The position numbers were made by a program, and so were the translations under genes. The notes beneath the pieces are model-generated. The model was not told where the DNA came from. It did no database searches and saw nothing but the letters and a program-made list of their open reading frames with translations. Positions 8,309-49,061 of a DNA stretch of 64,000 nucleotides are shown here, piece by piece. Source of the stretch: Spirochaetota bacterium (lineage in GTDB: Bacteria > Spirochaetota > Spirochaetia > Treponematales > Rectinemataceae); contig JAJUIB010000015.1 in assembly GCA_029265615.1 (NCBI GenBank), positions 1 through 64,000 of the forward strand. Direction: 5' to 3'. Each line of letters begins with the position of its first letter. The first letter of the stretch is position 1.

Positions 8309-10485
8309 CGCTCGCCACCCCTTGCGGCGCGCTTTGCGCCGTCGCGCTGGGCGGCAAGTGCAAGGCGATTGACGTCGAGGATAAGGGCGACCGTTCCATC
8401 TCCTAGAATGGTCGCACCGGAAACGCCCTCGACATCCTTGAACATGCGGCCAAGCGGCTTGATGACCGTCTGATAGTCGCCGACCACCTGATCGACGACA
8501 AAGCCGACCCGGCATTCCTGCGAATTTGCGATGACGATCTGTTCGATCTCCGGCTCCTCGCCCGCCGTCTCGAAGGATTCGCGCAGCGAGACAAAGGGCA
8601 CAAGCTCGTCGCGGTACGAAAGGATGCGGCGTTCGCCGTAGGACGCAAGCTCGGAGCGCCGGATCTCGATACACCCATCCACCGAGGAGAGGGGGATCAC
8701 GTAGAACTCCTCGGCGATGCGGACAAGGAGCCCCTCGATGATCGCGAGTGTAAGGGGTATCTTGAGCGTGATCGTCGTCCCCCTCCCCGGTTCCGAGGAA
8801 AGACTAACCGAACCGCCAAGCGAATCGATCTCGCGCTTGACGACGTCCATGCCAACGCCGCGCCCCGACACCGCGCTCACCACCTTTGCGGTCGAAAAGC
8901 CGGGCGCGAAAATGAGGAGGAAGAGCTCATCGTCAGCGACTTCCTGGCCAGGGGCAAGGAGGCCGCGCTCGACCGCCTTTTGGTAGATCGCATCCCGATC
9001 GAGCCCTCTGCCATCGTCGGCCACCTGGATGAGCACATAGGCACCCGAATGCCGCGCGGAAAGCAGAATGCGCCCCTTGGGGGCCTTGCCCGCGGCCTCA
9101 CGGGCCGAGGGTTTCTCTATCCCGTGATCGAGCGAGTTGCGGATGATGTGCACAAGCGGGTCGCCTAGCTTTTCAATGACCGTCTTGTCGAGCTCGGTCT
9201 CCGCGCCCTCAGTGACAAGCTCAGCCTCTTTACCGAGCTCGAGCGAGAGATCGCGCACAACACGCCTAAACTTGTTGAAGGTGCTTCCGATCGGGAGCAT
9301 GCGGATAGACATGGTGTTGTCGCGTAGCTGCGATATGAGCCGTTCGAACTGCTCGGAAATCGACGCGAGGGGGCCATCCTGCAGATCGAACGAAGTACGC
9401 GAAAGCCGCGCCTGAAGCGTGACGAGCTCGCCCACGAGATCAACGAGAGCGTCAAGCTTTTCGCTTGCGACGCGAATGGAGCCGGCGGCGGGATCACTCC
9501 GCTCCTGAACCTTTTTAAGATGTTCCTGTTCGACGAGCGCGGAATCGATCTCTGCCTTCGAGGCGACGCGTTTTTCCACGAGCACCTCGCCGAGCCGCTT
9601 CTGGCTGCCGAGCGCCTCGCGGAGCGACTCGGGACTGACAACGCCCCGCTCGACGAGTATTTCGCCAAGCCGCTTGGCGCGGCCCTCTTCGTCGAGGAAG
9701 GCCTCAGCAAGTCGCTCGATGCGGAGTTCGGAGCGATCCTCGACGAAAATGAACACGTCGCGGATGTCGTTCTCCGTTTTCTGCGTCGTAAGCACGACAT
9801 CCCAGAAACAGTAACAGCGTTCCGGATCGATCGCCTCGAGAGGGGGTATGTCCTCGGTATGAGGATAGACGGCCGCCTCGCCCAGACCGACAAGCTCCTC
9901 GACAAGGCTGAGCACGCGGGTCCCGTCCAGGAATATTTCGGGCTTCGGCTTCCAGAACACTCGATAGGTGGAAAGTCCGGACTCGTGTGCGGCCGGACCT
10001 GGGCCGGATGGCCCCTCCTGCGCCTGAAGGGTCGATTCGGGGGCGGTAGCGCCCTCCCCTGTAACGGCCGCGTCTTGGACCTTCGGTGCTGGCTTGAGGC
10101 CCGCGCCCGTCGCCACGTAGTCGCGGTACCGCGCAAGAATGGTTTCGCCATCGGCAACCACCTCGCGGGGGGGCGGCTCTTCGAACTCAAGGAGCCTGCG
10201 GAGGTGGTCGCGGGCCTTGAGCGTGAGGCCGATAAAATCCTTGGTAATGGGGAGGGTTCCCGCTCTGCATTGATCGAGGACGGTCTCCACTTCGTGTGTA
10301 AATTTGGAGATGGTCTCGAAGCCGAACATCGCGGACGAGCCCTTCACCGTATGCATCGCGCGAAACGCCGCGTTGATGAGTTCACCGTTCCGCGGCTGGG
10401 ACTCAAGCTCGAGGAGGGTGTCTTCGAGCTGCGACAGGAGTTCGTAGGATTCTTCGCGGAAAGCCGCCTTGAATTTGTCGATCAC
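8305..10485 (-). CDS. cheA: Chemotaxis sensor histidine kinase CheA
   Basis: 726 residues from GTG 10485, chosen because GGGAG lies six to seven bases upstream and the Hpt domain begins there (an ORF start at 10611 reads into the STAS gene). Order: Hpt with phosphorylated His45 (AMHTVKGSS); linker; a domain (about 150-245) containing WDVVLTT and RDVFIFVEDRSELRIERL; a repeated two-helix segment (RLGEILVERGVV and RLGEVLVEKRVA) resembling the N-terminal MshEN/GspE motif; dimerisation helices; HATPase with HIIRNSLDHGIE, DDGRGLD and GRGVGMDVVK; C-terminal CheW-like domain. A canonical P2 (CheY/CheB docking) domain is not obvious. It is the core kinase of the operon. Confidence 0.95.
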   Translation of the reverse strand: MIDKFKAAFREESYELLSQLEDTLLELESQPRNGELINAAFRAMHTVKGSSAMFGFETISKFTHEVETVLDQCRAGTLPITKDFIGLTLKARDHLRRLLEFEEPPPREVVADGETILARYRDYVATGAGLKPAPKVQDAAVTGEGATAPESTLQAQEGPSGPGPAAHESGLSTYRVFWKPKPEIFLDGTRVLSLVEELVGLGEAAVYPHTEDIPPLEAIDPERCYCFWDVVLTTQKTENDIRDVFIFVEDRSELRIERLAEAFLDEEGRAKRLGEILVERGVVSPESLREALGSQKRLGEVLVEKRVASKAEIDSALVEQEHLKKVQERSDPAAGSIRVASEKLDALVDLVGELVTLQARLSRTSFDLQDGPLASISEQFERLISQLRDNTMSIRMLPIGSTFNKFRRVVRDLSLELGKEAELVTEGAETELDKTVIEKLGDPLVHIIRNSLDHGIEKPSAREAAGKAPKGRILLSARHSGAYVLIQVADDGRGLDRDAIYQKAVERGLLAPGQEVADDELFLLIFAPGFSTAKVVSAVSGRGVGMDVVKREIDSLGGSVSLSSEPGRGTTITLKIPLTLAIIEGLLVRIAEEFYVIPLSSVDGCIEIRRSELASYGERRILSYRDELVPFVSLRESFETAGEEPEIEQIVIANSQECRVGFVVDQVVGDYQTVIKPLGRMFKDVEGVSGATILGDGTVALILDVNRLALAAQRDGAKRAARGGER

Positions 10486-10501
10486 CGTGGCGCTCCCTTT
10501 T

Positions 10502-10831
10502 TTAGAATTCAACAAGGCCGGCTTCGATATCCTCCGTCCTTTCGGGATGGCCGCGGAGGAAGCCTGCGGCGCACAGCCGCTTGCAAAGGCGTGACGGGAT
10601 AGAGCCGACAAAGTGGAACTCGCGGCCTAAAGCCTTCGCGGAGCGCCGCGCCGCGTAGAGGACCTGGAGACAGGCGAGATCGATATCCTCGACAAGCGAA
10701 AGGCTCACCAAAACAGGCCCCGAGCCCGCAAGCGCCTCTTCAAGCTCCTTTTTCAGGGCGGCGGCGCGATCGGTATAGAGAACACCGCTTAGGTTCACAA
10801 TCCCCTGGGTCTCGGCTTTCGACGTCGGCAT
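10502..10831 (-). CDS. STAS-domain protein
   Basis: 109 residues; ATG 10831 follows GGGAG by six bases. The whole protein is one STAS (anti-sigma-factor-antagonist-like) domain: IVNLSGVLYTDRAAALKKEL, then VLVSLSLVEDIDLACLQVL and LGREFHFVG. In SpoIIAA-type proteins a Ser follows the Asp of the D-(S/T) pair; here the region reads VEDIDLACLQ, with no clear phosphorylatable Ser in that place. It is the first gene of the chemotaxis operon, 16 bases before cheA, so a regulatory or scaffold role in the array is likely but inferred. Confidence 0.82.
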   Translation of the reverse strand: MPTSKAETQGIVNLSGVLYTDRAAALKKELEEALAGSGPVLVSLSLVEDIDLACLQVLYAARRSAKALGREFHFVGSIPSRLCKRLCAAGFLRGHPERTEDIEAGLVEF

Positions 10832-34675: not shown

Positions 34676-36445
34676 CTAACTCCCCTGCCGTAAAAAAGCG
34701 TCCTTGTAGCCTGCGGCTTTGACGCGAATGAGGACGACACCACCTTCGTCGCTCGACAGTGGCCCGACATAGAGCCGGAGGCGCGGGGCGGCGTCCGGGG
34801 AGGTCGTTTCTTCTACGGCAAGCGGATAAAGCCCGGAAAGCCCCTGGGTCGCAGCAGCAAGCGCCTCCCCCGTCGCATAGACGCCAAGCTGTACATAATA
34901 GGATCCCTTCGCAAGGCGCTCAAGCCGCACAACCCCAGGCGGTAGCGCAAACGCCTTCCCGGAACCAGGCTCGGAGCCGGCCCCGGTTCCGGGCGCGACA
35001 GCAGGAAGATCTGCCGCCGCGACAGAAGAGGCCGGCGCCGGCGAACTCTGGATCCCGAGGCTCGCGGGGGGCGAAGGCGGCTCACCCGGCGTCGACGAAG
35101 GCGGCCGTGCCGTAGTGGGCTCAAGTGTGATAGCGACATCGACCTCGGGTGTCTCTGCTGCGTCCTTATCACGCTGTGCGACTGCTTCGGGTTCGCTAAC
35201 CTGCTGCGCCGGTTCCGACTGCGCCAGTGCGGGCATTGACGCGTCCGGTTCCACCGACAGCTTTTCTGAATCTGATTCGGAAAACGCGGGGCTCTCCTGC
35301 GCCACCGCAAGGTTCTCAACCTCCGCCTCAGCCTCCGCAAGCGGCGCATCGGCATACGACGATGTGGGTGCACTCCGCGCGACCGCCGAGGCTTCGGGCA
35401 TTTCCGCGGGCATTTTCGCGGGAATTTCCGCAGGGCTTTCCGCCACACCGAGGTTTATCTCGCCCTCTGAAAGTGCAAAATCAGGACGTGCCGCGGGGGG
35501 GGCGCTTACGAGGCCGCCACTCAATTCGGGAAGCTCGTCGGGTCTGGGGAGCGGTTCGGAAAGCGGCACCCGGGGCGTCGAGGCAGCGGGAGGGGGCACA
35601 TCAATGCCTACGAGGAGCGGCGCCTCGGCGGGCGACGCCTGAGCTCGTGGAAGCTCAGGCTCTGGTAGCATAAGGGCCGTCCCGGTCACCGAGGGACGGA
35701 CTTGGGGCTTTCGCACGAGCTCTGGCGAGATTTCAGAAAGCAAGGTCGGCTCGGGGCGCGGTAGGGGGCTGGATGCCACAGGCGGAGTGCTTGCGCCTGG
35801 AAGCTCAGGCGCAGGCTCCGTGGGTTTTGGCGCGCTACGGTCGGCCGCGGGGAGACTGGCCGCGGACGGAGGCGTTTGCGTGCGTTCTGCGGGCGCAAGG
35901 AGCGCGACAGCCTCCTGAGCCGAAGCGTCGGATACTGCACCTGGAGTGGCGGCCGCATCGCCGGACGGCGCTCGCGGAATGGATGACGCAGATTGAGCGG
36001 CAGTGGGAGCTGTCGTGGCGGCGGTCGTCGCCTTAAGTTCGCGAAGCGCAAGAAGCTTCGGGTTGAAATCGGGATCCGCCGACTCACCGGGCCGCGGTTG
36101 CATGCCGGGGGCGAGGGTCGCGGCGGGAGTTCCGGCAAGGACGCGCACCCGTGCGGCATTTCCCTGACGCATGCCGAGCGCCGCAGAAGCCGCCGGGGAG
36201 AGCGCGATAAAAACACCGGGATTGTCCACGTTGCGCGTGATTGTCACAAGCGCCTTTTTGCCGTTTTCAAGATTTTCCACCTCAACCTTGCTGTTGAGAG
36301 GAAACGAGTTGCAGGCGCCATACAGACCTTCCGCAGGAAAGTCGAGCGGGCCCGCGGCAACGGCATTTCCCTCCCAAATCGAAGCGGCAAAAAGCGTAAA
36401 CGCGGCAAAGACCCCTAAAGCCGCGGCACAACAGGCGCGTTTCAT
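34676..36445 (-). CDS. Exported RlpA-like/SPOR-domain protein with long disordered linker
   Basis: 589 residues. Signal peptide with hydrophobic core and AVAAG cut region (about 1-32). Residues 35-115 resemble the double-psi beta-barrel of RlpA (EGLYGACNSFPLNSKVEVEN, VFIALSPAASAALGM), but the segment reads ITRNVDNPGVFIA where RlpA has its DRGPF-type motif with the catalytic Asp. Then about 390 residues rich in P, A, S, E, probably disordered, and a C-terminal SPOR domain (about 510-585, YYVQLGVYATGEALAAAT, then LRLYVGPL) that binds denuded septal glycans. Probable septum or wall protein. Starts by ATGA overlap with the upstream small gene; ends 29 bases from the convergent CapA gene. Confidence 0.8.
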   Translation of the reverse strand: MKRACCAAALGVFAAFTLFAASIWEGNAVAAGPLDFPAEGLYGACNSFPLNSKVEVENLENGKKALVTITRNVDNPGVFIALSPAASAALGMRQGNAARVRVLAGTPAATLAPGMQPRPGESADPDFNPKLLALRELKATTAATTAPTAAQSASSIPRAPSGDAAATPGAVSDASAQEAVALLAPAERTQTPPSAASLPAADRSAPKPTEPAPELPGASTPPVASSPLPRPEPTLLSEISPELVRKPQVRPSVTGTALMLPEPELPRAQASPAEAPLLVGIDVPPPAASTPRVPLSEPLPRPDELPELSGGLVSAPPAARPDFALSEGEINLGVAESPAEIPAKMPAEMPEASAVARSAPTSSYADAPLAEAEAEVENLAVAQESPAFSESDSEKLSVEPDASMPALAQSEPAQQVSEPEAVAQRDKDAAETPEVDVAITLEPTTARPPSSTPGEPPSPPASLGIQSSPAPASSVAAADLPAVAPGTGAGSEPGSGKAFALPPGVVRLERLAKGSYYVQLGVYATGEALAAATQGLSGLYPLAVEETTSPDAAPRLRLYVGPLSSDEGGVVLIRVKAAGYKDAFLRQGS

Positions 36446-36969
36446 TGCGAACCTCCAAAGCCGCGCGGGCGACTCTTGAGCAGGCTGGTAAAGGCGGCGG
36501 TGGCGGTCTCTCTCCCGAGAAGGCGCATCGCACGCCCCAGGCTTTCTACGGTTTCCTCCCGAGAAGGCGGAGCCGCTATGGAGCCTTCGACAAGCCGCGC
36601 TCCGTCGCGCGCATCGTAGATTCGGTACTCGATAAGACGCGGACGATCGAGGCCAGGTTTGAGCGTGGAGCGTTCAAGCTGCACGTACAAGAGGGCAAGG
36701 TACTCCACCCGCCCTTCTTGCGCCTCGCGAAGATCGCGAGGATCGAGCTCCCAGCTTTCTCGGACAACCTCGAAGGCCGTGCCGTTTGTGACGATGCGGC
36801 CTGCGTCAAAAAGGGCGTCCATCGCCCCGGAAAGGATGCCCTCGACCACGGGGCCAGAGCTCCGTCCCGGAGGCGTGGCAACCATAACCGAAACGGTCTG
36901 GGCCGCCACCCTGCCGACAAGCGTGAGCGCCAGACCTGAAAAGAGGGCGAGTCGTGCCACTCGTGTCAT
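36442..36969 (-). CDS. Small exported protein of unknown function
   Basis: 175 residues with signal peptide ending VGRVAAQ (about residue 24). ATG 36969 follows GGAAGG. Mature part has alternating strands (VEYLALLYVQLERS, LIEYRIYDARDGARLVEG) and no motif I can name. The stop overlaps the RlpA/SPOR gene start by four bases, so both are co-expressed and may act together at the cell wall. The 225-base gap on the upstream side, to the divergent NusG-paralogue gene, shows no clear minus-strand promoter. Confidence 0.78.
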   Translation of the reverse strand: MTRVARLALFSGLALTLVGRVAAQTVSVMVATPPGRSSGPVVEGILSGAMDALFDAGRIVTNGTAFEVVRESWELDPRDLREAQEGRVEYLALLYVQLERSTLKPGLDRPRLIEYRIYDARDGARLVEGSIAAPPSREETVESLGRAMRLLGRETATAAFTSLLKSRPRGFGGSQ

Positions 36970-37194: not shown

Positions 37195-37743
37195 ATGGAT
37201 TACTACGTGCTACAAGTGCGCACCGGCGGCGAGGACGACTTTATCCAGCGCTACGAACGGTCCTGCTTCGCCCCAAAAGGACGCCTTTTTCTTCCAAAGC
37301 GGGCGCTTCTCGTCCGCCGTGCCGGCAAGGTGAGCCGCAAAGAGCTCCCGGTGTTCCCTGGCTACGTCTTTCTCGAAACAGAGCGCGTCGACGAGGAAAC
37401 ACGCTGGCAGATCAGGCATATCGAGGGATTCTACCGCTTTCTTAAAAATTCGGGGAATAATCCCACCCCCCTCTCGGACAAGGATCGCGCACTGCTCCAC
37501 CACTTCATTTCCTTTGGGAAACGCGCCGATATATCGAAGGTGACCTTCGACGAAAACGACCGCATCGTCGTTCTCGAGGGGCCGCTCAAGGGCTTGGAGG
37601 GCAAGATCATCAAGGTCGACCGCCGTAAGAGCCGCGCCAAGGTGATCCTCGACCTCTACGAGAAGAGCTTCCCCATCGATTTCGGCTTTGAGGAGGTCAA
37701 GAAGGTCGGCCAAGGAGGCGGCGCTTCCCATGTCGTCACATGA
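37195..37743 (+). CDS. NusG-paralogue antiterminator (LoaP/UpxY/RfaH class)
   Basis: 182 residues from ATG 37195 (MDYYVLQVRTGGEDDF), just after GGAAGG. NGN domain (about 1-105; VLQVRTGGED, VFPGYVFLET, GFYRFLKNSG) and C-terminal KOW domain (about 120-160; DRIVVLEGPLKGLEGKIIKV). Housekeeping NusG is normally next to secE/rplK, which are absent here; this one stands at the head of a sugar-modification operon, as do LoaP and UpxY paralogues, which bind RNA polymerase and let it read long operons. Its stop overlaps the next gene by 14 bases. Target operon and RNA signal are inferred. Confidence 0.88.
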   Translation: MDYYVLQVRTGGEDDFIQRYERSCFAPKGRLFLPKRALLVRRAGKVSRKELPVFPGYVFLETERVDEETRWQIRHIEGFYRFLKNSGNNPTPLSDKDRALLHHFISFGKRADISKVTFDENDRIVVLEGPLKGLEGKIIKVDRRKSRAKVILDLYEKSFPIDFGFEEVKKVGQGGGASHVVT

Positions 37744-39220
37744 GCGCGAAAGCGCGCGGTTCTATATCATCGGAGCAGGCTTCGCGGGGCGGGCCGTCGC
37801 GCGGGAGATTGTCGCGAAGGGCGTGATCGGCGAGGTTGTCGCATTTCTTGACGATGATCCTGCAAAAATCGGCTCGCGCATCGAGGGCGTTCCCGTTCTT
37901 GGCCCCATTCGCGATGTGGTGAATCTCCTTGCGCGGACCCCCGCCGACGAGGCGATCATCGCAATTCCGAGCGCCTCCCGCGAGGAGCTACGGGAGCTGT
38001 ACTTCCTTTTGAAGCGGGCAGGCTTCCAAAGGATCCGCATCGTGCCCGGTATCGCCCAGATCGTCGAGGGGGACGCGCACTTCATCCAAGCGCGTGAGAT
38101 CGACCCCCAGGACCTCCTCGGACGCACCCCCGTGTCGATCGGCCTCAAGGAAAGCCTTGCCTACCTCCGCGGAAAGCGCGTCCTCATCACGGGCGCAGGA
38201 GGCTCTATTGGCTCCGAGCTCGCGCGCCAGCTTTTGTCGGCCGGCGTTGCGCGCCTCTACCTATTCGGACACGGCGAAAACTCGATCTATCAGATTGACC
38301 GAGAACTCCGCCTGCTCCAAGCCGAGGGGGTCGGCGAGCGAACTGCGATTGTTCCCGTCATTGGCGAGCTCAAGGATCCTGCGTACGTCCGGTTCATCCT
38401 TGGGCGGCTCAAAGCGGACGCCGTCTTCCACGCTGCAGCCTACAAACACGTCCCGATGATGGAGGAAAACCCCGTCGCCGCAGTGGAAAACAACGTTCTA
38501 GGCACGCAGAATCTCGTCGAAGCCGCCATCGAGACGGATGTGCGGAAATTCGTCCTTATCTCCACCGACAAGGCCGTGGAACCCGTTTCCGTCTACGGCG
38601 TTTCCAAGTTCCTTGCCGAGCGGATCGTTGAAGAGGCCGCCTCTCGCGCCGCGGCTGGGCAGGAGTTCATGGTCGTCCGCTTCGGTAACGTCCTCGGTTC
38701 CCGCGGTTCCATCGTGCCGCTTTTCAAAAAGCAGATCGAGCAGGGCGGCCCCGTGACCGTAACGCATCCTGAGACAAGCCGCTACTTCATGACCATCCCC
38801 GAAGCCTGCTCGCTCGTGCTCAAAACGGGCGGCGTCGGAAAATCCGGGGAACTGTACCTCCTCGACATGGGCGAACCGGTTCGCATCCGGGATCTTGCCG
38901 AACAGATGATCCGTTTCTACGGCTACGAACCGGGGAAGGACATACGCATCGAATACGTGGGCCTGCGCCCCGGCGAGAAGGTCGAAGAACACCTCCATGC
39001 CGCCGATGAGCGTCTTGTGCCCACCGCCTACCCGCGCGTCAATCGCCTTGAACGCATCGGACCCGCCTTTCCCCTCCGAGAAGTGCTTGCTGAACTCGAG
39101 CCGGTCACCCGGCTCACCCAAGGAGCCGAAAAAGACTATAGGAACCGCCGGAAGCTCCGGGCGGTCTTGAAAAAATTCGTTTCCACCCTTAAGGTGCCCG
39201 AACATGAGCCAGAATACTGA
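37730..39220 (+). CDS. Soluble CapD/FlaA1-like nucleotide-sugar dehydratase/epimerase
   Basis: 496 residues from ATG 37730 (MSSHERES); GGAGG lies eleven bases upstream inside the NusG-paralogue gene. N-terminal Rossmann region (FYIIGAGFAGRAVAREI, residues 11-140) as in PglF/WbpM, but without the four membrane helices these usually carry. The catalytic SDR domain follows: NAD motif LITGAGGSIGSEL (about 153), STDKAVEP, and YGVSK (about 288) with catalytic Tyr and Lys, then FMTIPEAC and GEKVEEHLH. Such enzymes make 4-keto-6-deoxy sugars from UDP-GlcNAc. With the adjacent aminotransferase this gives a route to UDP-4-amino sugars. Confidence 0.9.
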   Translation: MSSHERESARFYIIGAGFAGRAVAREIVAKGVIGEVVAFLDDDPAKIGSRIEGVPVLGPIRDVVNLLARTPADEAIIAIPSASREELRELYFLLKRAGFQRIRIVPGIAQIVEGDAHFIQAREIDPQDLLGRTPVSIGLKESLAYLRGKRVLITGAGGSIGSELARQLLSAGVARLYLFGHGENSIYQIDRELRLLQAEGVGERTAIVPVIGELKDPAYVRFILGRLKADAVFHAAAYKHVPMMEENPVAAVENNVLGTQNLVEAAIETDVRKFVLISTDKAVEPVSVYGVSKFLAERIVEEAASRAAAGQEFMVVRFGNVLGSRGSIVPLFKKQIEQGGPVTVTHPETSRYFMTIPEACSLVLKTGGVGKSGELYLLDMGEPVRIRDLAEQMIRFYGYEPGKDIRIEYVGLRPGEKVEEHLHAADERLVPTAYPRVNRLERIGPAFPLREVLAELEPVTRLTQGAEKDYRNRRKLRAVLKKFVSTLKVPEHEPEY

Positions 39221-40484
39221 TTTTGTCCCCTTCGCGAAGCCTTCCCTCGGGCTCGAGGAGGAGAATGCCGTCCTCGAGGTGCTCCGCTCGGGCTGGCTCA
39301 CGACCGGCAAGATCGCCAAGGCATTTGAAGAGGAATTCGCCGCCTTTGTCGGTGCCCGGGCCGCGCTCGCCGTAAACTCGGCGACGAGCGGTCTTCACCT
39401 CGCCCTTGAGGCGCTTGGTGTTGGGCCGGGCGACCTTGTCGTCACGAGTCCCTATACATTCACCTCCACGGCTTCGGTTGCCCGGCACCTCGGCGCCGAG
39501 GTCGCCTTTTGCGACATCGGTGCGGACGATTACAACATCGACCCCGACAAGCTCGAAGCGCTCCTTGAACGCTCGCCGCAGGTCAAGGCGGTTATTGCGG
39601 TCCATGTGGGCGGCCTTCCCTGCCGCATGGCGGAACTCATCGCGATATGCACAAGGCGGGGCATAGCCCTCGTCGAGGATGCGGCGCACGCCTTCCCTTC
39701 GAAAATCCCCGCTCCGGTCCTGGCTTCCGTAGGAAAGGCGGAGGCGGATGGCACCTTTGCGGGGACGCTTGGCGCGATCGGTGTCTATTCCTTTTATGCG
39801 ACCAAAACCATCACGACCGGCGAAGGTGGCATGATCGTCTGCGAGGACGAAAAACTCGTGCGGCGCATGGCGATGATGCGCTCGCACGGCTTCGATCGCG
39901 ACGCCTTCGACCGCTACACCTCGAAGACCGCCTCCTGGTACTATGAGGTGGCCGAGGCGGGCTTCAAGTACAACCTTCCCGACCTCCTCGCTGCGATCGG
40001 ACGGGAACAACTTAAAAAAGCTTCCCGTTTTCTCGAGGAACGCCGAAACATCGCCCGCGCCTATGACGAGGCATTTGGGCCGGGATCGCCCGCCGAGGAG
40101 CTCCTCGAGTTGCCGCCCCACGGTGCAGGCCCCTTTAGGGCCGCACACTCCTGGCACCTCTACAGCCTCCGCCTCCGCGGTCCCATCGCGGGGCGCCGCG
40201 ACGAGTTCTTCGAGCGACTCATGCAGAAAGGTGTCGGCGCCTCGGTGCATTTCATCCCCTTGCACATCATGCCCTATTTTTCGCGAAGGTATGGGCTTGC
40301 GCCCTCGTCCTTCCCGGAGGCCTACGGCAAATATCTCCGCACAATCTCGCTCCCCATCTGGCACGGCATGAGCGACACGGAGGTGGAGCGGGTGCGCCTT
40401 GCCGTTCTCGAAACCGCCGCGGAGCTCGCCGCCTGTACCCCACGGCCACGAACCCGTAGCGGGTTTGGCGGTGGCGAGGCCTAG
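39204..40484 (+). CDS. DegT/DnrJ/EryC1/StrS-family sugar aminotransferase
   Basis: 426 residues. PLP enzyme transferring an amino group from glutamate to a keto sugar. N-terminal FVPFAKPSLGLEEENAV.. and WLTTG start, PLP-binding VEDAAHAF, Schiff-base Lys201 in FYATKTITTGEGG, and C-terminal SVHFIPLHIMPYF, all typical. ATG overlaps the CapD-like gene by 17 bases, and the product is expected to use the 4-keto sugar made by that enzyme. The C-terminus has an Arg/Gly-rich tail. Confidence 0.93.
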   Translation: MSQNTDFVPFAKPSLGLEEENAVLEVLRSGWLTTGKIAKAFEEEFAAFVGARAALAVNSATSGLHLALEALGVGPGDLVVTSPYTFTSTASVARHLGAEVAFCDIGADDYNIDPDKLEALLERSPQVKAVIAVHVGGLPCRMAELIAICTRRGIALVEDAAHAFPSKIPAPVLASVGKAEADGTFAGTLGAIGVYSFYATKTITTGEGGMIVCEDEKLVRRMAMMRSHGFDRDAFDRYTSKTASWYYEVAEAGFKYNLPDLLAAIGREQLKKASRFLEERRNIARAYDEAFGPGSPAEELLELPPHGAGPFRAAHSWHLYSLRLRGPIAGRRDEFFERLMQKGVGASVHFIPLHIMPYFSRRYGLAPSSFPEAYGKYLRTISLPIWHGMSDTEVERVRLAVLETAAELAACTPRPRTRSGFGGGEA

Positions 40485-40487
40485 GCG

Positions 40488-42581
40488 ATGCCCGAAGGCG
40501 AAAATCCACGCGCCGCGCAGGCAGAGCCGCGCCTGTCCGATCTTCTCCCCGCAGGGGGGCTACAGGTGGTGACAATCCGCTCGCCCTCGCCACGCGGTCG
40601 GCTCCTCGGGGTCGAGGCACCACACCTGCCCAAGGGCTATCTTCTGATAGAGGCACGCGATCTACCCGGCGCCAACCGGATATCCTGCTTCGGGTCGGAA
40701 CTGCCTATTCTCGCGGAGGGGCGCATTGCATTCTCAGGCGAGCCGGTTGCCCTTCTTGCGGGACCGGACACTGCGGTGCTCGCGGACATTGTAGCCAAAG
40801 TGAAGGTCCGCGTCGAAGAGGAAGAGCCCTTGGTTAATTGGGAAAGCTTTTCGTCTGAACAGGTTGCCGCAAAACGCGTTGCATCCTTAGGCGATCCTGA
40901 ACTCGCCTTCTCCATCGCAGACAAGGTCGTTGAACGGAGCTACCGCGCTGAAGCCCTCGAGCATTGGTACAGCGAACCGCAGGGGGCCCTTGCCTCATTC
41001 GACTACGACAAGCTCGAGATACGTTGCGCGACCCAGTGGCCCTACCACGTCCGGGACTCAGTCGCCCGCGCCCTCGGAACGAAGCCGGAAGACGTCGTCG
41101 TCAGGCCGACGCGCCTTGGCGCCCATCTCGACGGGAAGCTCTGGTACCCCTCCCTCCTTGCCTGTCATGCCGCGCTCGCCGCTTTTCTCGGCAAGCGCTC
41201 CGCCCGGCTCCTTCTTTCGCGCGAAGAGGACTTCCTCTATAGTCCTAAGCGCGCGCCTGAAGCGGTGGCCCTCCGCGCGGCGCTCGACAAGAGCGGCAAC
41301 CTTTCGGCCCTCGATGTGCGGATGTCGATCCACGTGGGGGCGCAGGCGCCGCTTGCGGAAGAGCTTTTGTCTCAAGCCTGTCTTGCGGTGCAAGGCGCCT
41401 ATGTCTGTCCCAACCTCCGCCTTGAGGGCTACGCGGTAACGACGAACAGCCCTCCGCTGGGCGCATTCGGCGGGCTCGGCGCCGCGCCCGCCTTTCTCGC
41501 TATCGAATCACTGTCCACTGAACTCGCCGAGGCCGCGGGCATGGATCCAATTGAGTGGAAATCGCGCAATCTCCTGAGAAAGGGGTCGCGGCTCCTCGCC
41601 GGCGATCCCCTCAAGGAGGACACGCCCTTCGACGCAATCGCCGAACAACTCTGCCGCGCAAGCGACTTTAGGCGGAAGTGGGCCGCATATGAACTTGTGC
41701 GGAAACGCCGCTCATGCCGCTCCGAGGGGCCGATGCGCGGCATCGGCCTCGCTTTCGCCCATCAGACGGGCGTCTTTCTCTCGGGAAGCGGTCCGAACTC
41801 CTACACCGTCGAAGCATGCCTTGACAAGGATCTCAGGCTACTCCTCAAAACGAGCGCCGCGATCTGCAAAGGCGGGATCGCCGACATCTGGCGCCAAAGC
41901 GCGGCCGAAATTCTTGGCATCCCGGCCGATAAGGTGAGCATCGCGCCGCCCGACACCGACGGTTCGCCGAATTCTGGACCGGTTACGCTTTCGCGCGGCC
42001 TTTCGGTTGTCAATCGGCTCGTCGAACGGGCCTGCACCGCGATCCAAAAGCGCCGCTTCCGGGACCCCCTCCCCATTTCGGCGAAGGCGATCCACCGTCT
42101 CCCCTCGTCCTCAGCCTGGGAACCAAACCGCGTCGCAGGTTCGCCGCTTGAATCCGCCGCCTGGGGTGGAGCCGTCGTCGAGGTGGAGCTCGATTCCTGG
42201 ACGCTTGAGCCACGCACCTTGGGCCTCTGGCTCTGCGTCGAAGGTGGACGGATTGTATCGCATGCGCGGGCCGCATCGGCGCTCCGTGCCGCTGCGAGCG
42301 CCGCACTCAGCTCCTGCATGCGGGAACGCCTTGCCTTTGAGCGCGGCGCCATCTCCCGGGAGGCATTTCTCAGCTACGAGACCCTTCCGCTCGCCGAGGT
42401 GCCGCCCATCCTCGTGGAATTCCTCGAGGCTGAGCGCCGCTCCCCGGCAAAGGGCCTCGGCGAACTCCCCTTCGACACCGTGCCCGCCGCCTTCCTTAGC
42501 GCTGTTTCGCAGGCGGCGGGCATACACTTCACGACCCTGCCCCTCGGTCCCGACGCCCTTTCCGCCTTGGAGGATGCATGA
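40488..42581 (+). CDS. Xanthine dehydrogenase-family large (molybdopterin-binding type) subunit, divergent
   Basis: 697 residues, a little shorter than typical (about 750). The family layout is visible: SGEPVALLAGPD near 85, RSYRAEALEHWYSEPQGALA near 150, SREEDFLYSPKRAP near 245, and the C-terminal GLGELP with the probable catalytic Glu near 660 (family GVGEPP). But the GGGFGGK motif of Moco enzymes reads LGAHLDGK, and the RAPGAPQ region reads LGAFGGLGAAP. So cofactor binding may be altered. Three bases after degT; the stop overlaps the Fe-S subunit gene. Substrate unknown. Confidence 0.85.
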   Translation: MPEGENPRAAQAEPRLSDLLPAGGLQVVTIRSPSPRGRLLGVEAPHLPKGYLLIEARDLPGANRISCFGSELPILAEGRIAFSGEPVALLAGPDTAVLADIVAKVKVRVEEEEPLVNWESFSSEQVAAKRVASLGDPELAFSIADKVVERSYRAEALEHWYSEPQGALASFDYDKLEIRCATQWPYHVRDSVARALGTKPEDVVVRPTRLGAHLDGKLWYPSLLACHAALAAFLGKRSARLLLSREEDFLYSPKRAPEAVALRAALDKSGNLSALDVRMSIHVGAQAPLAEELLSQACLAVQGAYVCPNLRLEGYAVTTNSPPLGAFGGLGAAPAFLAIESLSTELAEAAGMDPIEWKSRNLLRKGSRLLAGDPLKEDTPFDAIAEQLCRASDFRRKWAAYELVRKRRSCRSEGPMRGIGLAFAHQTGVFLSGSGPNSYTVEACLDKDLRLLLKTSAAICKGGIADIWRQSAAEILGIPADKVSIAPPDTDGSPNSGPVTLSRGLSVVNRLVERACTAIQKRRFRDPLPISAKAIHRLPSSSAWEPNRVAGSPLESAAWGGAVVEVELDSWTLEPRTLGLWLCVEGGRIVSHARAASALRAAASAALSSCMRERLAFERGAISREAFLSYETLPLAEVPPILVEFLEAERRSPAKGLGELPFDTVPAAFLSAVSQAAGIHFTTLPLGPDALSALEDA

Positions 42582-43066
42582 CCTTCAGCTTCATTCTGAA
42601 CGGTGAGGACGTCCTTGTGAAAGCTCGCTCCGCAGACCGCCTTGTCGACCTTCTCCGCGAACGCTTTGGCCTTCTTGGTCCCCTTGCTGATTGCCGTCAT
42701 GGAGCCTGTGGCAAGTGCCTCATCCTTCTTGACGGAAGGCTTGCACCGTCCTGTATGCTCCCTGCGTTCAAGGTCCGCGGCAGGGAGGTCATCACCCTCG
42801 AGGGATTTTCGCAAACCGACGAATATGCGGACATCAAGGGCGGCTTCGAGGAGGCGGGCCTCGAACTGTGCGGCTTTTGCGACAATGGCCGCATACTCGC
42901 GGTCGCGGCGCTCCTTGAGCGAAACGCGCGCCCTTCGCGCGACGAGATTCTCGGAGAACTGTCCGCCGTTCCCTGCCGTTGCGCCGATCCGGAAACACTT
43001 ACGCAGGCGGTGGCGGCGGCGGCCGAGCGCCGGGCAAGGAGGCTCTACCACCGTGCTCGTCAGTGA
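42578..43066 (+). CDS. [2Fe-2S] subunit of xanthine dehydrogenase-type oxidoreductase
   Basis: 162 residues. Plant-ferredoxin-like cluster site with Cys39, 44, 47 and 59 (DCRHGACGKC..SC) and the second, helical cluster site with Cys98, 101, 133 and 135 (CGFC..PCRC). All eight cluster cysteines are present, so electron transfer should work. ATG overlaps the large-subunit stop (ATGA) and the end overlaps the FAD-subunit gene by 14 bases. Confidence 0.95.
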   Translation: MTFSFILNGEDVLVKARSADRLVDLLRERFGLLGPLADCRHGACGKCLILLDGRLAPSCMLPAFKVRGREVITLEGFSQTDEYADIKGGFEEAGLELCGFCDNGRILAVAALLERNARPSRDEILGELSAVPCRCADPETLTQAVAAAAERRARRLYHRARQ

Positions 43067-43880
43067 GGTCCACCAGCCCCGTGATCTATCGGAACTTCTT
43101 TCGCTCATGCGGCGCCTTCCCGGCGCGACGCTCTACGCAGGAGGCACGGAGCTCCTCCGCGAACAAGCATCGCGGTATGTCACTTTGCCGCCTGAGCTCG
43201 TATCGATCGCCTCTCTGCTCGAGCTCAGGCAAGTTTCGCTTACCGAGCGCTTTGTCGAACTCGGCGCCTGCCTCACCCTCACCGAGGTGCTCGAGCTCAA
43301 GGAAAGCGCCCTGCCCGAACTCCTTGCGCTTGCGCTCCGCGGTGTCGCGACGGCACCAATCCGCAACCTCGCGACGATCGGCGGGAATCTTGCAACCCGT
43401 TCTCGCTTTATGGACGTCTGGCCCGCACTCGCCTGCCTCGATGCCCTGGTCGAACTCCGCGACGGCTCAGGCGCGCGCTGGATCAATCTGAATCGTCTTG
43501 CCGACGATGATGGGCGACCGGCCTTCCCCGCGGGCGTACTGCTATCGCGCATCCGCATACCGCTTGAACGATGGGACGCCGTCGCGCTTCGCAAGGTCGG
43601 CCGCTGCGGCTATCCCTCGCGAGACAGCGCCGTTTTCGCCCTCGCCGCTCGCGCAGAGAAAGGCATACTCGCCGAATTCCGGCTTGCCTTCGCAGGCGAA
43701 CGAGCGCTACGCCTCCGCGACGTGGAGAGCCGCATTCTGGGACGGCGCCTCCCTTTGAGCGCCAAAGAGCGCTCCGCCTTTGCTGTCGAGTACCGCGAGG
43801 CTGCGACCGTCCTTTCACCGGAGCTCGCACTCCGATTCGGGACCCTCGTGGACGGGGCCCTCGATCTCCTTTCGAGGTGA
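43053..43880 (+). CDS. FAD-binding subunit of xanthine dehydrogenase-type oxidoreductase
   Basis: 275 residues from GTG 43053 with AAGGAGG ten bases upstream; the longer frame to 42642 is a shadow. FAD motifs LYAGGTELL and TIGGNLATRSRF, the pair typical of molybdenum-hydroxylase FAD subunits, plus a C-terminal CO-dehydrogenase-flavoprotein-like domain. Third part of the complex with the two upstream products. Confidence 0.93.
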   Translation: MLVSEVHQPRDLSELLSLMRRLPGATLYAGGTELLREQASRYVTLPPELVSIASLLELRQVSLTERFVELGACLTLTEVLELKESALPELLALALRGVATAPIRNLATIGGNLATRSRFMDVWPALACLDALVELRDGSGARWINLNRLADDDGRPAFPAGVLLSRIRIPLERWDAVALRKVGRCGYPSRDSAVFALAARAEKGILAEFRLAFAGERALRLRDVESRILGRRLPLSAKERSAFAVEYREAATVLSPELALRFGTLVDGALDLLSR

Positions 43881-43883
43881 AAC

Positions 43884-44705
43884 ATGGAAGGACACAAGGG
43901 TGTTCTGTACCTCCTCCCAAACTTGCTCTACCCCGCGAGCGAGGGTGGGCCGCCGCCTGCGTCTTTATTGCCCGAGCCGGCCATCGAGCGAATCAAGGAG
44001 ATTAGGCATTTCATTGTCGAAGGGGACAAGGCGGCATGGCGCCTCTTTTCGTCGGTTCTAGACCGCGAGGGCCTTGCACAGATCAGCCTTGCACGGCTCG
44101 ACGAACACAGCAGGGAGGAGGAGCTCCCGGCCCTGCTTGAACCCGCGCTCGCGGGTGAAGACATCGGGCTCCTTTCCGATGCGGGAATCCCCTGTGTCGC
44201 CGACCCGGGCGGAGCGCTCACAGCGCTCGCACACGACCACGGCATACGTGTCGTCCCCCTTGGCGGGCCTTCGTCGCTCATGCTCGCACTCTCCGCTTCG
44301 GGGCTTGACGGGCAGCGCTTCAACTTCCTCGGTTACTTGCCGCAGGATGCCAGCTCACGGAAGGCCGCACTCAAGGCAATCGACCATGGCGTCCGGGTCG
44401 ATGGCGCAACGCGTATGTTCATCGAAACCCCCTATCGCAACGAGCGTCTCCTCGCCGACTGTCTCGAATGCATAGGTCCCGACCTCAGACTCTGCGTTGC
44501 ATCAGCGCTTACAACGCCCGCGGAAATGATACGATCCATGCCGATCGCTTCATGGCGTACGCTTGCCGGTATGAGTCTCCGCGCGCCGCTTATCGGCAAA
44601 GAACCGGCCGTCTTCCTTGTGGGCCGGGTCCCCGGAACGCGGCTTGACCACGCGCACGGCATCCGTCATAGTGCGAACCGGCCATGCAGAAAACCGCGCC
44701 GATGA
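43884..44705 (+). CDS. Tetrapyrrole-methylase-fold SAM methyltransferase, RsmI-like
   Basis: 273 residues. Begins GVLYLLPNLLYPAS, followed by IVEGDKAAWRLFSSV, LSDAGIPCVADPGG and VVPLGGPSSLMLALSASGL, then FLGYLPQDASSRKAAL and FIETPYRNERLL. These match the RsmI family (2'-O-methylation of 16S rRNA C1402), but the N-terminal part differs from classical RsmI (usual LYVVATPIGNL). It is thus an RsmI paralogue; the substrate may be another nucleotide or sugar-like ring. C-terminal basic tail. Three bases after the FAD subunit. Confidence 0.85.
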   Translation: MEGHKGVLYLLPNLLYPASEGGPPPASLLPEPAIERIKEIRHFIVEGDKAAWRLFSSVLDREGLAQISLARLDEHSREEELPALLEPALAGEDIGLLSDAGIPCVADPGGALTALAHDHGIRVVPLGGPSSLMLALSASGLDGQRFNFLGYLPQDASSRKAALKAIDHGVRVDGATRMFIETPYRNERLLADCLECIGPDLRLCVASALTTPAEMIRSMPIASWRTLAGMSLRAPLIGKEPAVFLVGRVPGTRLDHAHGIRHSANRPCRKPRR

Positions 44706-45463
44706 ACTACGAGGAGCGCTATGCCGATGCGCTCGTCCAGTGGAATCCCTTTGCGATCCAGAGCACGGGCCTTGTCCAGGGCGGAACCGTGCTCAAAATC
44801 GACACCTACAACCTGGTCTGTGTGCCGTACCAGTTCTCCATGAAGCGGGCCGTCCTCGCAGGTTATTTTTCAAAGGACGAGATTGCCTTCTTCCAGCGGT
44901 TCAAGGGAAATATCGCCGCACTCGCCCTCTCGTTTCAACGGCCCGATCAACGTGAGCCTTTGAAGATATTCTGCCGTTGCCAGGTCGCGGCCATCGGTGC
45001 GATGAAGGAGCGTGATACTGTCGCGCTTATTGTCCTCGACTGGAAGCCCATCCCGCGTGATCTTGCAGAGCTACTTGGCGAGCACCTGTGGCTCCTTGAA
45101 AGGCTCAAGCTCGAATTCGAAACCTTCAAGAACAAGCGCATAGCGCTGAGCCCCGCGAGCGCGCGAAGCCTGGGTTTCAACAACTACGCTGTAATGAGCG
45201 TAGAAGGCGTTCAAACAAAACTCGCCCTTTTCGCGCTCGCCGCAAACTACCTCGAATTCCTCGTGCCGATGCGCGCTACGGACTTAAGCCTCGGCCTTGA
45301 GGCCACCTTCTCGCTCTATTTCCTGTCCTACCGCTTCACCGTACGCGGGACAATCGAAAGCGCAGAGCGGCTTCCAACGGGCGTGCAGCGCGTCAAGGCG
45401 GCAATAGGCTATTCGCCCGAGCTTGTGCACATCCTTGAGGGATATTTCAACGCGCGCGCGTAG
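44702..45463 (+). CDS. PilZN3/PilZ-like spirochaetal protein
   Basis: 253 residues from ATG 44702, whose ATGA overlaps the preceding stop; ATG 44684 is an alternative. No ribosome site in either case. Two beta-rich halves: 10-115 (GTVLKIDTYNLVCVPYQFSM, LKIFCRCQVAAIGAM) and 150-250 (VQTKLALFALAANYLEFLVP, YFLSYRFTVRGTIESAERL). The layout resembles PlzA-type c-di-GMP receptors of spirochaetes, but no RxxxR plus [DN]xSxxG pair is visible, so c-di-GMP binding is doubtful. Last gene of the operon, ten bases from the end of mfd. Confidence 0.65.
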   Translation: MNYEERYADALVQWNPFAIQSTGLVQGGTVLKIDTYNLVCVPYQFSMKRAVLAGYFSKDEIAFFQRFKGNIAALALSFQRPDQREPLKIFCRCQVAAIGAMKERDTVALIVLDWKPIPRDLAELLGEHLWLLERLKLEFETFKNKRIALSPASARSLGFNNYAVMSVEGVQTKLALFALAANYLEFLVPMRATDLSLGLEATFSLYFLSYRFTVRGTIESAERLPTGVQRVKAAIGYSPELVHILEGYFNARA

Positions 45464-45473
45464 AAGCCCACAA

Positions 45474-48400
45474 TCAGGCAAGGAGGGATGCGAGTTTTTC
45501 CCGCAGAAATTCGCTTTTCTCCTTGAGTCCGATGGAGCCTGTCTTGATGATGAGCACATTCGGCCGATGAGGATCGAGTTTGATACGGCCGCCAGATTCT
45601 CGGATGAGACGGAGGACCCGTTCCACCGAGACCTTTGCAACCTTGGAGAATTCGATGACGACGACGCCGCCCCGCTCCCGGAGGCTTGAAACGGAGAGCT
45701 TACGGCAGATAACGCGTATTTCGGCGAGAGAGAGCAGGCTTTCAGCCTCCTCGGGAAGGGGGCCGAAACGATCGATGAGTTCCGCACGGAGGGCCTCGAG
45801 ATCCTCATCGGTGAAAATCGAGGCTATTTTCTTATAGACCTCCATCTTCACAGTTGGCATCGAAATGTACTCGTCGGGAATGTAGCCGCGATACTCAAGT
45901 TCGAGGTAGGTCTCCTCCTCCGGCTGCCATTTCTCGTCGGAGAGCCGGGCGACCGCCTCGTCGAGTAGCTTGAGATAGAGGTCGAATCCCACCGAATAGA
46001 TGTCGCCCGACTGCTCGCGGCCAAGAAGATTGCCCGCGCCACGGACCTCGAGATCCTTCATCGCGACCTTGAAGCCCGAGCCGAGTTCGGTAAAGTCGGA
46101 AATGACCTGAAGACGCTTCATGGCGAGCTCAGACAGGGCGCGGCGGTCGGGATAGAGGAGATAGGCGTAGGCGAGCCGGTCGGAGCGGCCAACGCGGCCG
46201 CGGAGCTGGTAGAGCTGGGAAATGCCGTACATGTCGGCGCGGTCGATGATGATCGTGTTGACGTTGGGGATGTCGATGCCGTTCTCGATGATGGTCGTCG
46301 AAACGAGGACCTGGAAGCCACCATGGACAAAGCGGTGCATGATGTCCTCGAGCTCAGTCGACTCCATCTGGCCGTGCGCGGTTTCCACAAGCACTTCAGG
46401 GACAAGCTGCGTAAGGAATGTGCACACCTCGTCGAGACTCTCGATGCGGTTATGGAGATAAAAAACCTGCCCGCCGCGCGCGACCTCGCGCCTAATCGCC
46501 TCGGCGACGATGTCGGGACTAAATTCCTCGACGACGGTTTCGATGGGTAGCCGGGTCGAGGGCGGCGTTTGAAGGACCGACATGTCGCGGATTTTGAGGA
46601 GCGACATGTGGAGCGTACGCGGGATGGGCGTCGCGGTGAGCGTGAGGGAGTCGACGGCCGCGCGCATCTCCTTGAGCCGCTCCTTGTCCTTCACGCCGAA
46701 GCGTTGCTCCTCGTCGACAACGAGGAGCCCCAAGTCCTTCCACTCAACATCCTTCTGGAGCAGTCTGTGTGTCCCGACGACGAGATCGACCTTGCCTTCA
46801 CGAATGCCCGCAAGGATCCTGCGCTGCTCCCTCTTGTCGACAAGGCGCGAAAGCATGGCGATATTGACCGGAAAGCCCTCAAGCCGCTCTTTGAAATTCT
46901 CGTAGTGCTGCTCGGCCAGAATGGTAGTCGGTGCGAGAAAGGCGACCTGTTTGCCTGCCACTGCGGCCTTAAAGCAGGCGCGCATCGCAATTTCGGTTTT
47001 GCCGTAACCGACATCGCCGCAAATGAGGCGGTCCATGGGCTTTCTGCTTTCCATGTCGGCCTTCACCTCGTCGATGCAGCGGAGCTGGTCCTGCGTCTCC
47101 TCGTAGGGGAAAGCCGCCTCGAACGCGAGCTGCCAGTCTGAATCGGGGGGGAAGGCGTAGCCCTGGGCGGCCTTGCGCCGCGCGTAAATGCGGATGAGGC
47201 GCTCGGCGAGCTCCTCGACCGATTTTCGCACCTTGCTCTTGCGGTTCTCCCAGGATTTCGAGCCAAGGCGGTCAAGCCGCGGCGCCTCACCCTCGTTCCC
47301 GATGTACCGTTGCACGAGGTTGACCTGTTCAATTGGTACAAAGACGTTCTCCTCGTCGGCGTACTCTATTTTTACATAATCGCGTTCGTTGCCGAGAACG
47401 CGCATCCGCTCGATGGCGACAAACCGGCCGATGCCGTAATTGACATGGACGACGTAGTCTCCAGGATTGAGCTCGACAAAGGTGTCGATGACCGAACTAC
47501 GCGCGCTCTTCACCGATTTAGGCACGCGCTTGCGCCTGCCAAATATCTCCCCTTCCTGCACGACGAGAAGTTTGCGCGCGGGGATCGAAAAACCTGCGGA
47601 AAGCCCTGCGGCCGCTACCTCGATCGCATAGTCCTTAAGCAGGGCGCGTATTCGCTCCGCCTGTGGTTCGGTCTCGGCGAAGACGAGTACCTCGTACCCA
47701 GCCTTGAGGAGCGAAGCGAGCTCTTCCTTAAAATACTGGACATTGCCGAAAAAAGAACGCGGCGGTTCAGCGCCGAGGCGGAGCCGTTCCGAAGCATCCT
47801 CGGAGCGGAGCGCATAATCGCGGATGACGCGAAGCGGGGGGAGACATTGCGACGCCTTTTCTGGGAACACGTCTGGGAACGCGGATGCCCGTGACGGGAT
47901 TGCCTGAGCTTCCAGCGCACGCATCTCGATCGCGGCGAAGGAATGGAGAAGGCGGTCGGGCGGCGGCACAGGCGCTTCCTTGAGTGCGCCGCGATAGAGC
48001 CCCGCGTACTCTTTCCGCGCCGCTTCCTCCTGCGCCTCAAGCCGCTCACGATCGAGGAGCATAAGAATCGAACCGGGGCTGAGATAGTCGAGTATAGACC
48101 CTGCCTCGCCCGCTTCCGCGGCGAAGGCCACGGGATACCACAGTTCCTCGCCTTTTGCCTCGCCTCTTTCAGCGAGCGATTCAAGGAGCGGTCCGAGCCT
48201 TCCCGCGCAATTCGGGAAGGCTGCAGCCGCATCCTCGAGCGCGGCGACGCGATCGGGGCTCCATATCCACTCCTTCATCGGTCTGAGCGCCGCGCGGCCT
48301 AAGTCGCGGAGTCCCGTCTGCCCCGCCGGATCAAAAGCCGCGACACGTTCGATACGCTCATACTCGAACACAATGCGGAGAGCAAGTTCATCGCCCGGCA

Positions 48401-48968
48401 TAAAGACGTCGAGCACCTCACCGCGCAGGGCGAATTCCCCCGGCAGGGACACGCGCGGAACGCGGAGGTAGCCGTAGGTGACGAGGCGTTTGCCGAGGGC
48501 CGTCGGATCAATCTCGCCGCCTTTTTCGACGGTGAACACGAGGGAGGAGAAACTTGGGCGCGGCGGAAGAGGCGTCACAAAGGCACGCTGACTTGCGATG
48601 AGCACACGCGCCTCGCCTGAGACCAGCGCGGCAAGGACGGCCGCACGATCGCCAAAAACGTGCGCGCGCGGCGAGGCAGGACGGTAGGCCGCCGTCTTCC
48701 ACCAGGGCAAAAGGAGCGCATCGACGCCGAGCGCCGCAAGATCGTTTGCGAAGGTTTCCGCCTCCTGATCGGAGGGGAGCACGACGAGGAGTGTTCCGCC
48801 TTCGCCCCGCTCTTCGAGCGCCGTCGCGGCGAGGACGGCCGCGAAGGAGCCCTCGGCCTCGGCAACATCGATGGGGAAGGTGCCGCCGCATAGGCGGGCG
48901 CGAAATTCCGAAAGCGGCGCGTGACCGGCGAGCCGGGCGGGGATATCGTGTGGCAGTAAGGTTTTCAT
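45474..48968 (-). CDS. mfd: Transcription-repair coupling factor Mfd
   Basis: 1164 residues from ATG 48968 (MKTLLPHDIPARL); the frame to 49019 has no ribosome site, and the chosen ATG has only a weak GGA. Mfd displaces stalled RNA polymerase at lesions and recruits UvrA. UvrB-like N-terminal region, RNA-polymerase-interaction domain (NPGDYVVHVNYGIGRFVAIE, about 490-560), helicase motifs GDVGYGKTEIAMR (about 655) and DEEQRFGV (about 756), TRG region QLRGRVGRSDRLAYAYLLY and C-terminal UvrA-binding domain. Complete. Confidence 0.96.
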   Translation of the reverse strand: MKTLLPHDIPARLAGHAPLSEFRARLCGGTFPIDVAEAEGSFAAVLAATALEERGEGGTLLVVLPSDQEAETFANDLAALGVDALLLPWWKTAAYRPASPRAHVFGDRAAVLAALVSGEARVLIASQRAFVTPLPPRPSFSSLVFTVEKGGEIDPTALGKRLVTYGYLRVPRVSLPGEFALRGEVLDVFMPGDELALRIVFEYERIERVAAFDPAGQTGLRDLGRAALRPMKEWIWSPDRVAALEDAAAAFPNCAGRLGPLLESLAERGEAKGEELWYPVAFAAEAGEAGSILDYLSPGSILMLLDRERLEAQEEAARKEYAGLYRGALKEAPVPPPDRLLHSFAAIEMRALEAQAIPSRASAFPDVFPEKASQCLPPLRVIRDYALRSEDASERLRLGAEPPRSFFGNVQYFKEELASLLKAGYEVLVFAETEPQAERIRALLKDYAIEVAAAGLSAGFSIPARKLLVVQEGEIFGRRKRVPKSVKSARSSVIDTFVELNPGDYVVHVNYGIGRFVAIERMRVLGNERDYVKIEYADEENVFVPIEQVNLVQRYIGNEGEAPRLDRLGSKSWENRKSKVRKSVEELAERLIRIYARRKAAQGYAFPPDSDWQLAFEAAFPYEETQDQLRCIDEVKADMESRKPMDRLICGDVGYGKTEIAMRACFKAAVAGKQVAFLAPTTILAEQHYENFKERLEGFPVNIAMLSRLVDKREQRRILAGIREGKVDLVVGTHRLLQKDVEWKDLGLLVVDEEQRFGVKDKERLKEMRAAVDSLTLTATPIPRTLHMSLLKIRDMSVLQTPPSTRLPIETVVEEFSPDIVAEAIRREVARGGQVFYLHNRIESLDEVCTFLTQLVPEVLVETAHGQMESTELEDIMHRFVHGGFQVLVSTTIIENGIDIPNVNTIIIDRADMYGISQLYQLRGRVGRSDRLAYAYLLYPDRRALSELAMKRLQVISDFTELGSGFKVAMKDLEVRGAGNLLGREQSGDIYSVGFDLYLKLLDEAVARLSDEKWQPEEETYLELEYRGYIPDEYISMPTVKMEVYKKIASIFTDEDLEALRAELIDRFGPLPEEAESLLSLAEIRVICRKLSVSSLRERGGVVVIEFSKVAKVSVERVLRLIRESGGRIKLDPHRPNVLIIKTGSIGLKEKSEFLREKLASLLA

Positions 48969-49061
48969 CGCAGCATTCCGACAATCAAGGGTGGATAGAC
49001 GTCGCGCGGCATCATACACCCGATCCGCCGACCGTTTCCATATCGAAGGAGAGCTAGGGCA

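Follow-up and report, generated by a model that had tools for sequence, protein, structure and literature searches.

We analysed a window of 64,000 nucleotides (positions 1 to 64,000 of contig JAJUIB010000015.1, GenBank assembly GCA_029265615.1, from a Spirochaetota bacterium of the family Rectinemataceae) in which a gene for a NusG paralogue heads a row of eight plus-strand genes, and we find that six of these genes are a conserved spirochaetal operon joining sugar-nucleotide genes to those of a xanthine dehydrogenase (XDH)-type complex. The first gene, loaP (37195-37743), encodes an antiterminator with NGN and KOW domains. It is followed by a capD-like gene (37730-39220) for a uridine diphosphate (UDP)-N-acetylhexosamine (HexNAc) 4,6-dehydratase of the soluble long form (Polysacc_synt_2, 370 bits, and CoA_binding_3) and by degT (39204-40484) for a DegT/DnrJ sugar-nucleotide aminotransferase (DegT, 354 bits). 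The XDH-type genes are xdhA (40488-42581; MoCoBD_1/MoCoBD_2), for a large subunit without the molybdopterin loops, xdhC (42578-43066; Fer2_2 and Fer2), for a subunit with two [2Fe-2S] clusters, and xdhB (43053-43880, with a GTG start; FAD_binding_5, 124.6 bits), for the flavin adenine dinucleotide (FAD) subunit. Two accessory genes come last, an RsmI-like paralogue of the tetrapyrrole/rRNA methylases (43884-44705; TP_methylase, 41 bits) and PilZN3 (44684-45463; PilZN3, 42 bits; alternative ATG start at 44702).

All eight open reading frames (ORFs) of the original prediction are present head to tail, and the Pfam and NCBIfam domain calls match the names that they had been given. From the first gene to the eighth the spacings are -14, -17, +3, -4, -14, +3 and -22 bases (the last -4 with the later PilZN3 start), so that neighbours overlap by 4-22 bases or lie 3 bases apart. 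The convergent mfd gene (45474-49019, minus strand) closes the block. Internal promoters and terminators had been proposed as a check, and nothing was found that clearly splits the block: the promoter scan gave a single plus-strand sigma-70-like match within it (44644-44672, ahead of PilZN3), and terminator-like sites in the block were not enriched (16 versus 13.0 +/- 3.7 in shuffles). No Rfam family was matched in the block.

A scan for LoaP in 84,980 species genomes left 80 loci, 77 of them spirochaetal. The order loaP-capD-degT-xdhA-xdhC-xdhB was found at 36 spirochaete loci, though many contigs are short. When only loci with room downstream are counted, loaP-capD adjacency is kept in 63 of 73, capD-degT in 53 of 61, degT-xdhA in 40 of 45, xdhA-xdhC in 39 of 41 and xdhC-xdhB in all 38. 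Gene order is conserved far beyond chance, and the six genes are an ancient, vertically inherited operon of the class Spirochaetia. The fixed co-occurrence of all eight genes that had been expected does not hold; the stable core has just six members (five without loaP). An RsmI-like gene follows xdhB at only 10 of 38 loci and is itself followed by PilZN3 at 8 of 9, and these two genes are additions in nearer relatives, outside the core. As for the proposal of a single unit, the sugar-amination and XDH-type genes are indeed inherited as one, but the molybdenum-dependent oxidation and the methylation that were to complete the pathway are unsupported.

A five-gene set, capD-degT-xdhA-xdhC-xdhB, is contiguous and intact at 87 kb in a Treponema pallidum-like genome of 1,139,633 bp (G034); loaP was not found in this operon stretch. 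The set is apparently that of T. pallidum, two of whose genes, TPASS_0079 and TPASS_0081, are tabulated as parts of xanthine dehydrogenase (PMC4403809, correction PMC5951579). This table was all that the literature searched offered on the T. pallidum genes, and nothing on point was found there for TP007x locus tags, molybdenum-free XDH or molybdenum utilisation in spirochaetes.

It could be argued that one LoaP-controlled transcript carries two unrelated functions, with a metabolic oxidoreductase that is independent of amino-sugar synthesis. Such a division would suit two loci (L034, L037) where loaP leads directly into xdhA with capD and degT not in reach, and also T. vincentii (L014 in genome G004), where loaP-capD is separate from an operon-type XdhA elsewhere in the genome. 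However, in three Treponema loci (L110, L116, L117) capD does not adjoin the set and degT-xdhA-xdhC-xdhB are still together, so the degT-xdhA adjacency survives relocation of loaP and capD; it is also kept in the T. pallidum-like genome, which is strongly reduced and has no loaP in the set. We consider a division into two functions rather improbable.

The molybdenum site of XdhA

When the window XdhA is aligned with its orthologues and with canonical XdhA, the segment LGAHLDGKLWYP (41115-41150, plus strand) stands in place of the molybdopterin loop GGGFGGK(E), and AFGGLGA (41463-41483, plus strand) in place of AFRGFGA, with loss of the substrate arginine (Arg310/Arg880). The glutamine of GGQEHFYLE is also lost (L157), and the catalytic glutamate of the canonical KxxGEPP (Glu730/Glu1261) is retained in KGLGELP (42450-42470, plus strand). 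The roles of these residues are established in XDH biochemistry. Throughout the operon-linked XdhA proteins the molybdopterin loop has become LGxHLDGK-LWYP or is more degenerate, AFRGFG is without its arginine and the GQG loop is gone. Among 79 XdhA sequences, the pattern GG-x-[FY]G-x-K is absent from all 61 that are operon-linked, and each of the 18 others has it. A single branch (Shimodaira-Hasegawa-like approximate likelihood ratio test, SH-aLRT, 100) splits loop-less from loop-bearing proteins in a quick tree that has long branches and is rooted by the canonical side. The window protein has the catalytic glutamate. This residue is present in 44 of the 73 sequences aligned, a set that includes some canonical ones, and most host-associated Treponema have lost it, as has the T. 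pallidum-like genome.

Among spirochaetal relatives, the best ones whose loops are intact (L118, L125, L128-L131, L122) are free-standing. Because these loop-bearing proteins have no loaP, capD or degT beside them and the loop-less ones are all operon-linked, the loss of the molybdenum site goes with capture by the sugar operon, and the two would most simply have been one event.

The fold has outlasted the site. An AlphaFold2 model of the window XdhA (predicted local distance difference test, pLDDT, 90; predicted template modelling score, pTM, 0.90) aligns with xanthine oxidase at Z 45 over 681 residues (VIA-align). The model of an eroded XdhA (L050; pTM 0.82) matches aldehyde oxidoreductase as well as xanthine oxidase; its low-confidence segments include the one where the molybdopterin loop used to be. 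Ratios of nonsynonymous to synonymous substitution rates (dN/dS) for xdhA were 0.04-0.31 in ten close pairs, near the capD and degT values and indicative of purifying selection; pseudogene decay of xdhA was rejected on these ratios and on the intact ORFs.

The capacity for cofactor synthesis was surveyed order-wide in 294 genomes of 85% completeness or more. Of these, 286 matched the XdhA profile, a maximum for the operon type since the profile can also match canonical XdhA, and 66 had a match to MoeA. Most of the best XdhA E-values were below 1e-140, versus about 1e-12 to 1e-63 for canonical copies. Absence of MoeA is not decisive alone, because no MoeA was matched in T. vincentii, which does have MoaA, MoaC and canonical XDH genes; MoaC was therefore checked too. 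Both MoeA and MoaC were missing from 14 genomes that are complete or nearly so (G034, G064, G027, G065, G081, G085, G099, G154, G191, G176, G196, G175, G287 and G181) and whose sole match to the XdhA profile was of the operon type. The operon supplies the sole MoCoBD_1 gene of the complete Breznakiella homolactica genome and of eight others, all lacking MoeA and MoaA. Genomes that bear MoaC (G000, G140, G204, G004, G399) also have canonical XDH genes; the one in the Brachyspira-like G399 encodes a free-standing canonical XdhA.

A genuine molybdenum hydroxylase could still be imagined, one that binds its cofactor in a novel way and makes or salvages it by unrecognised means. The retained fold agrees with this, as do the catalytic glutamate of many members and the window genome itself (2.70 Mb, 99.88% complete), which makes the cofactor (MoeA and MoaC are present) and has three canonical MoCoBD_1 genes. 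Nevertheless, we judge it very unlikely: the loop is missing from every operon-linked protein, synthesis of the cofactor is absent from the 14 genomes above, and a single substitution beside the catalytic glutamate, G1269R, is enough to leave human aldehyde oxidase AOX1 folded yet cofactor-free (PMC6487702). With the cofactor-binding loops gone and most carriers devoid of cofactor synthesis, the oxidation by a molybdenum hydroxylase suggested at the outset was not sustained.

Since AOX1 G1269R folds without its cofactor, a cofactor-free member of the XDH fold is physically plausible. This variant and demolybdo xanthine oxidoreductase resemble the spirochaete protein in that the fold stands without the cofactor; they are, however, variants or apo forms with their pterin-binding residues kept, whereas the spirochaete loss dates back to the ancestor, extends across the family and is under selection. 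We did not find such a loss in a xanthine oxidase-family complex described in the literature searched. The three-subunit XDH family (PucCDE, XdhABC, nicotinate dehydrogenase, 4-hydroxybenzoyl-CoA reductase) shares the MoCoBD, double [2Fe-2S] and FAD subunits and the XdhA fold, but the spirochaete XdhA is without the molybdopterin loops and the equivalents of Gln197 and Arg310, its genes are fixedly linked to capD and degT, and most of its carriers do not synthesize the cofactor. It is strongly supported that XdhA, XdhC and XdhB form a three-subunit complex of the XDH fold without a molybdenum centre. The annotation of this locus as "xanthine dehydrogenase" across spirochaetes is probably wrong.

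A few in-frame stops were noted in these genes: one genome (G470) has two operon-type XdhA copies (contigs C51 and C32), each with one stop (TGA, TAG), and single stops were seen in XdhA of G204 (contig C1, TAA) and in MoaC of G240 (contig C1, TGA).

LoaP and the amino-sugar genes

The assignment of the first gene to the LoaP-type NusG paralogues was borne out, as it scores 149.8 bits with the NCBIfam LoaP model NF033641 (cut-off 125) and falls short of the NusG equivalog model (64.9 bits, cut-off 135.7). Nor is it the only housekeeping NusG, a possibility that had been raised against the prediction: a separate nusG adjoins rplK on contig C26 of the same genome (199.8 bits with the NusG model and 85.3 with the LoaP model). 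LoaP genes have been reported near biosynthetic operons in Spirochaetota, and the LoaP target in Bacillus is a leader hairpin of UNCG type (PMC12691694). Hairpins of this type were found upstream of loaP in 4 of 79 leaders, with 1.15 expected from mononucleotide shuffles, which is no convincing excess, and in none of 45 loaP-capD gaps, in a search that covered the UNCG type only. Because no conserved UNCG hairpin was found, control of the block by LoaP is something we can only infer. The difficidin and macrolactin operons of Bacillus velezensis are similar in that a LoaP paralogue heads a biosynthetic operon; the spirochaete operon differs in being short, in the lack of a detected UNCG leader hairpin and in having no known product.

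The best solved relative of CapD is WlaL (5bjy, 245.5 bits), the bacillosamine dehydratase of C. jejuni, for which PglF is another name. In the catalytic TDK..YGxSK pattern the residues T, D, K, Y and K are kept in all 80 sequences. DegT has ArnB-type enzymes as its nearest solved structures, and its pyridoxal phosphate (PLP) lysine (K201, base 39804 in the window) is kept in 71 of 71. A 4,6-dehydratase followed by a DegT aminotransferase, with CapD nearest to WlaL, recalls the amino-sugar pathways of PglF/PglE, PseB/PseC and WbpM type. In contrast to these, the spirochaete operon is without an acetyltransferase or nearby glycosyltransferases and has the XDH-type genes instead.

The same types of parts, namely a 4,6-dehydratase, a DegT-family enzyme and proteins with [2Fe-2S] and FAD, are also used in deoxygenation of the E1/E3 kind, as in ascarylose synthesis, where a DegT-family enzyme and iron-sulphur flavin proteins strip a hydroxyl from a keto sugar. 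In E1-type enzymes, though, the PLP lysine is replaced by histidine. Because this lysine is kept throughout DegT, and since E3 is not of XDH type, we regard such a reaction here as scarcely credible.

In three loci of termite-associated spirochaetes (L040, L054, L058) degT matches as two pieces about 0.5 kb apart with the break near residue 50, and the open frame of about 575-594 residues points to an in-frame insertion.

Function of the operon

The explanation that we favour, tentatively and at somewhat short of even chances, combines these parts: in a LoaP-headed operon, CapD and DegT would make an amino-sugar nucleotide, and a molybdenum-free XdhACB redox complex would act on it or on a derivative. 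By analogy with Bacillus, LoaP would bind the elongating polymerase early and prevent premature termination over the block. Judged by family and by conserved catalytic residues, CapD is predicted to form UDP-4-keto-6-deoxy-HexNAc, which DegT would aminate to UDP-4-amino-4,6-dideoxy-HexNAc. The FAD of XdhB and the two [2Fe-2S] clusters of XdhC are probably still present in most lineages. XdhACB would then most likely work as an electron relay comprising FAD, the clusters, a pyridine nucleotide or carrier, and the substrate or partner that occupies the remodelled cleft of XdhA; the fixed gene linkage suggests that the substrate is the amino-sugar nucleotide or its descendant.

The retained redox residues bear on whether the complex is an enzyme at all. 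In the window XdhC all eight cluster cysteines are present (39, 44, 47, 59, 98, 101, 133 and 135); about 58-63 of 67 sequences keep the cysteine at each position, and the ATIGGN FAD motif of XdhB is retained nearly everywhere. These residues would be needless for a mere scaffold. Even so, the clusters are dispensable in some lineages, which makes a pseudoenzyme scaffold or regulator the strongest rival. The XDH-derived complex would then have no redox role and would serve CapD/DegT or a glycan enzyme, for instance, as a structural platform or ligand sensor. The molybdenum loops were lost first and then, in several lineages, the catalytic glutamate and [2Fe-2S] cysteines, with fold and selection kept. 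XdhC of the T. pallidum-like genome has lost all four Fer2-cluster cysteines and kept the second cluster, together with the FAD subunit; the same Fer2 cluster is eroded in L020, L114 and L116. In L120 (G407; XdhC at about 10329-10781) both clusters' cysteines are lost though the six-gene operon is complete. We rate a non-redox role as possible but doubtful.

Several points weigh against the redox explanation that we prefer. With cluster cysteines of one or both kinds lost in L106, L114, L116, L020 and L120, a full electron relay is not universal. XdhA evolves faster than CapD and DegT, loaP runs directly into xdhA at two loci, and the leader hairpins of loaP show no convincing excess. The evidence that would tie the complex to the sugar comes from gene linkage and is indirect.

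We further suggest, with less assurance than for the operon's joint function, that a molybdenum hydroxylase was captured early in Spirochaetia by an amino-sugar operon and, once its molybdenum centre had gone, turned into a new kind of flavin/iron-sulphur sugar-nucleotide oxidoreductase that is core to Treponematales, including the syphilis spirochaete. The ancestral loss of the molybdenum centre explains an old oddity, the presence of xanthine dehydrogenase genes in T. pallidum when no genes for molybdenum cofactor synthesis were found in its genome here, and suggests that a pathogen with a strongly reduced genome has retained an amino-sugar pathway.

Accessory and flanking genes

The RsmI-like gene scores 85 bits with the RsmI equivalog model (cut-off 167.9) and was rejected as the housekeeping RsmI, since the true RsmI of this genome lies on contig C42 (196.8 bits). 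A methylation step in the pathway, as first proposed, finds no footing in a gene of the rRNA/tetrapyrrole methylase family that is confined to nearer relatives. The RsmI-like and PilZN3 genes were probably added to the transcript among the window's relatives, and they would lie outside the core reaction.

At several loci from termite-gut treponemes and Breznakiella (L058, L064, L047, L036, L049, L043), genes for a MarR-like regulator, an AroB-like synthase and/or a BamA-like outer-membrane protein, all named by sequence inspection, are often found downstream of xdhB. Elsewhere, at L134 (contig C39 of G000), a PPAGA tandem-repeat linker was noted in a fusion protein of a cobalamin cluster. Divergently upstream of loaP in the window (34676-36969, minus strand) are genes for a SPOR-domain protein and a protein of about 175 residues with a signal-peptide-like start, and this pair holds the same position in many spirochaetes.

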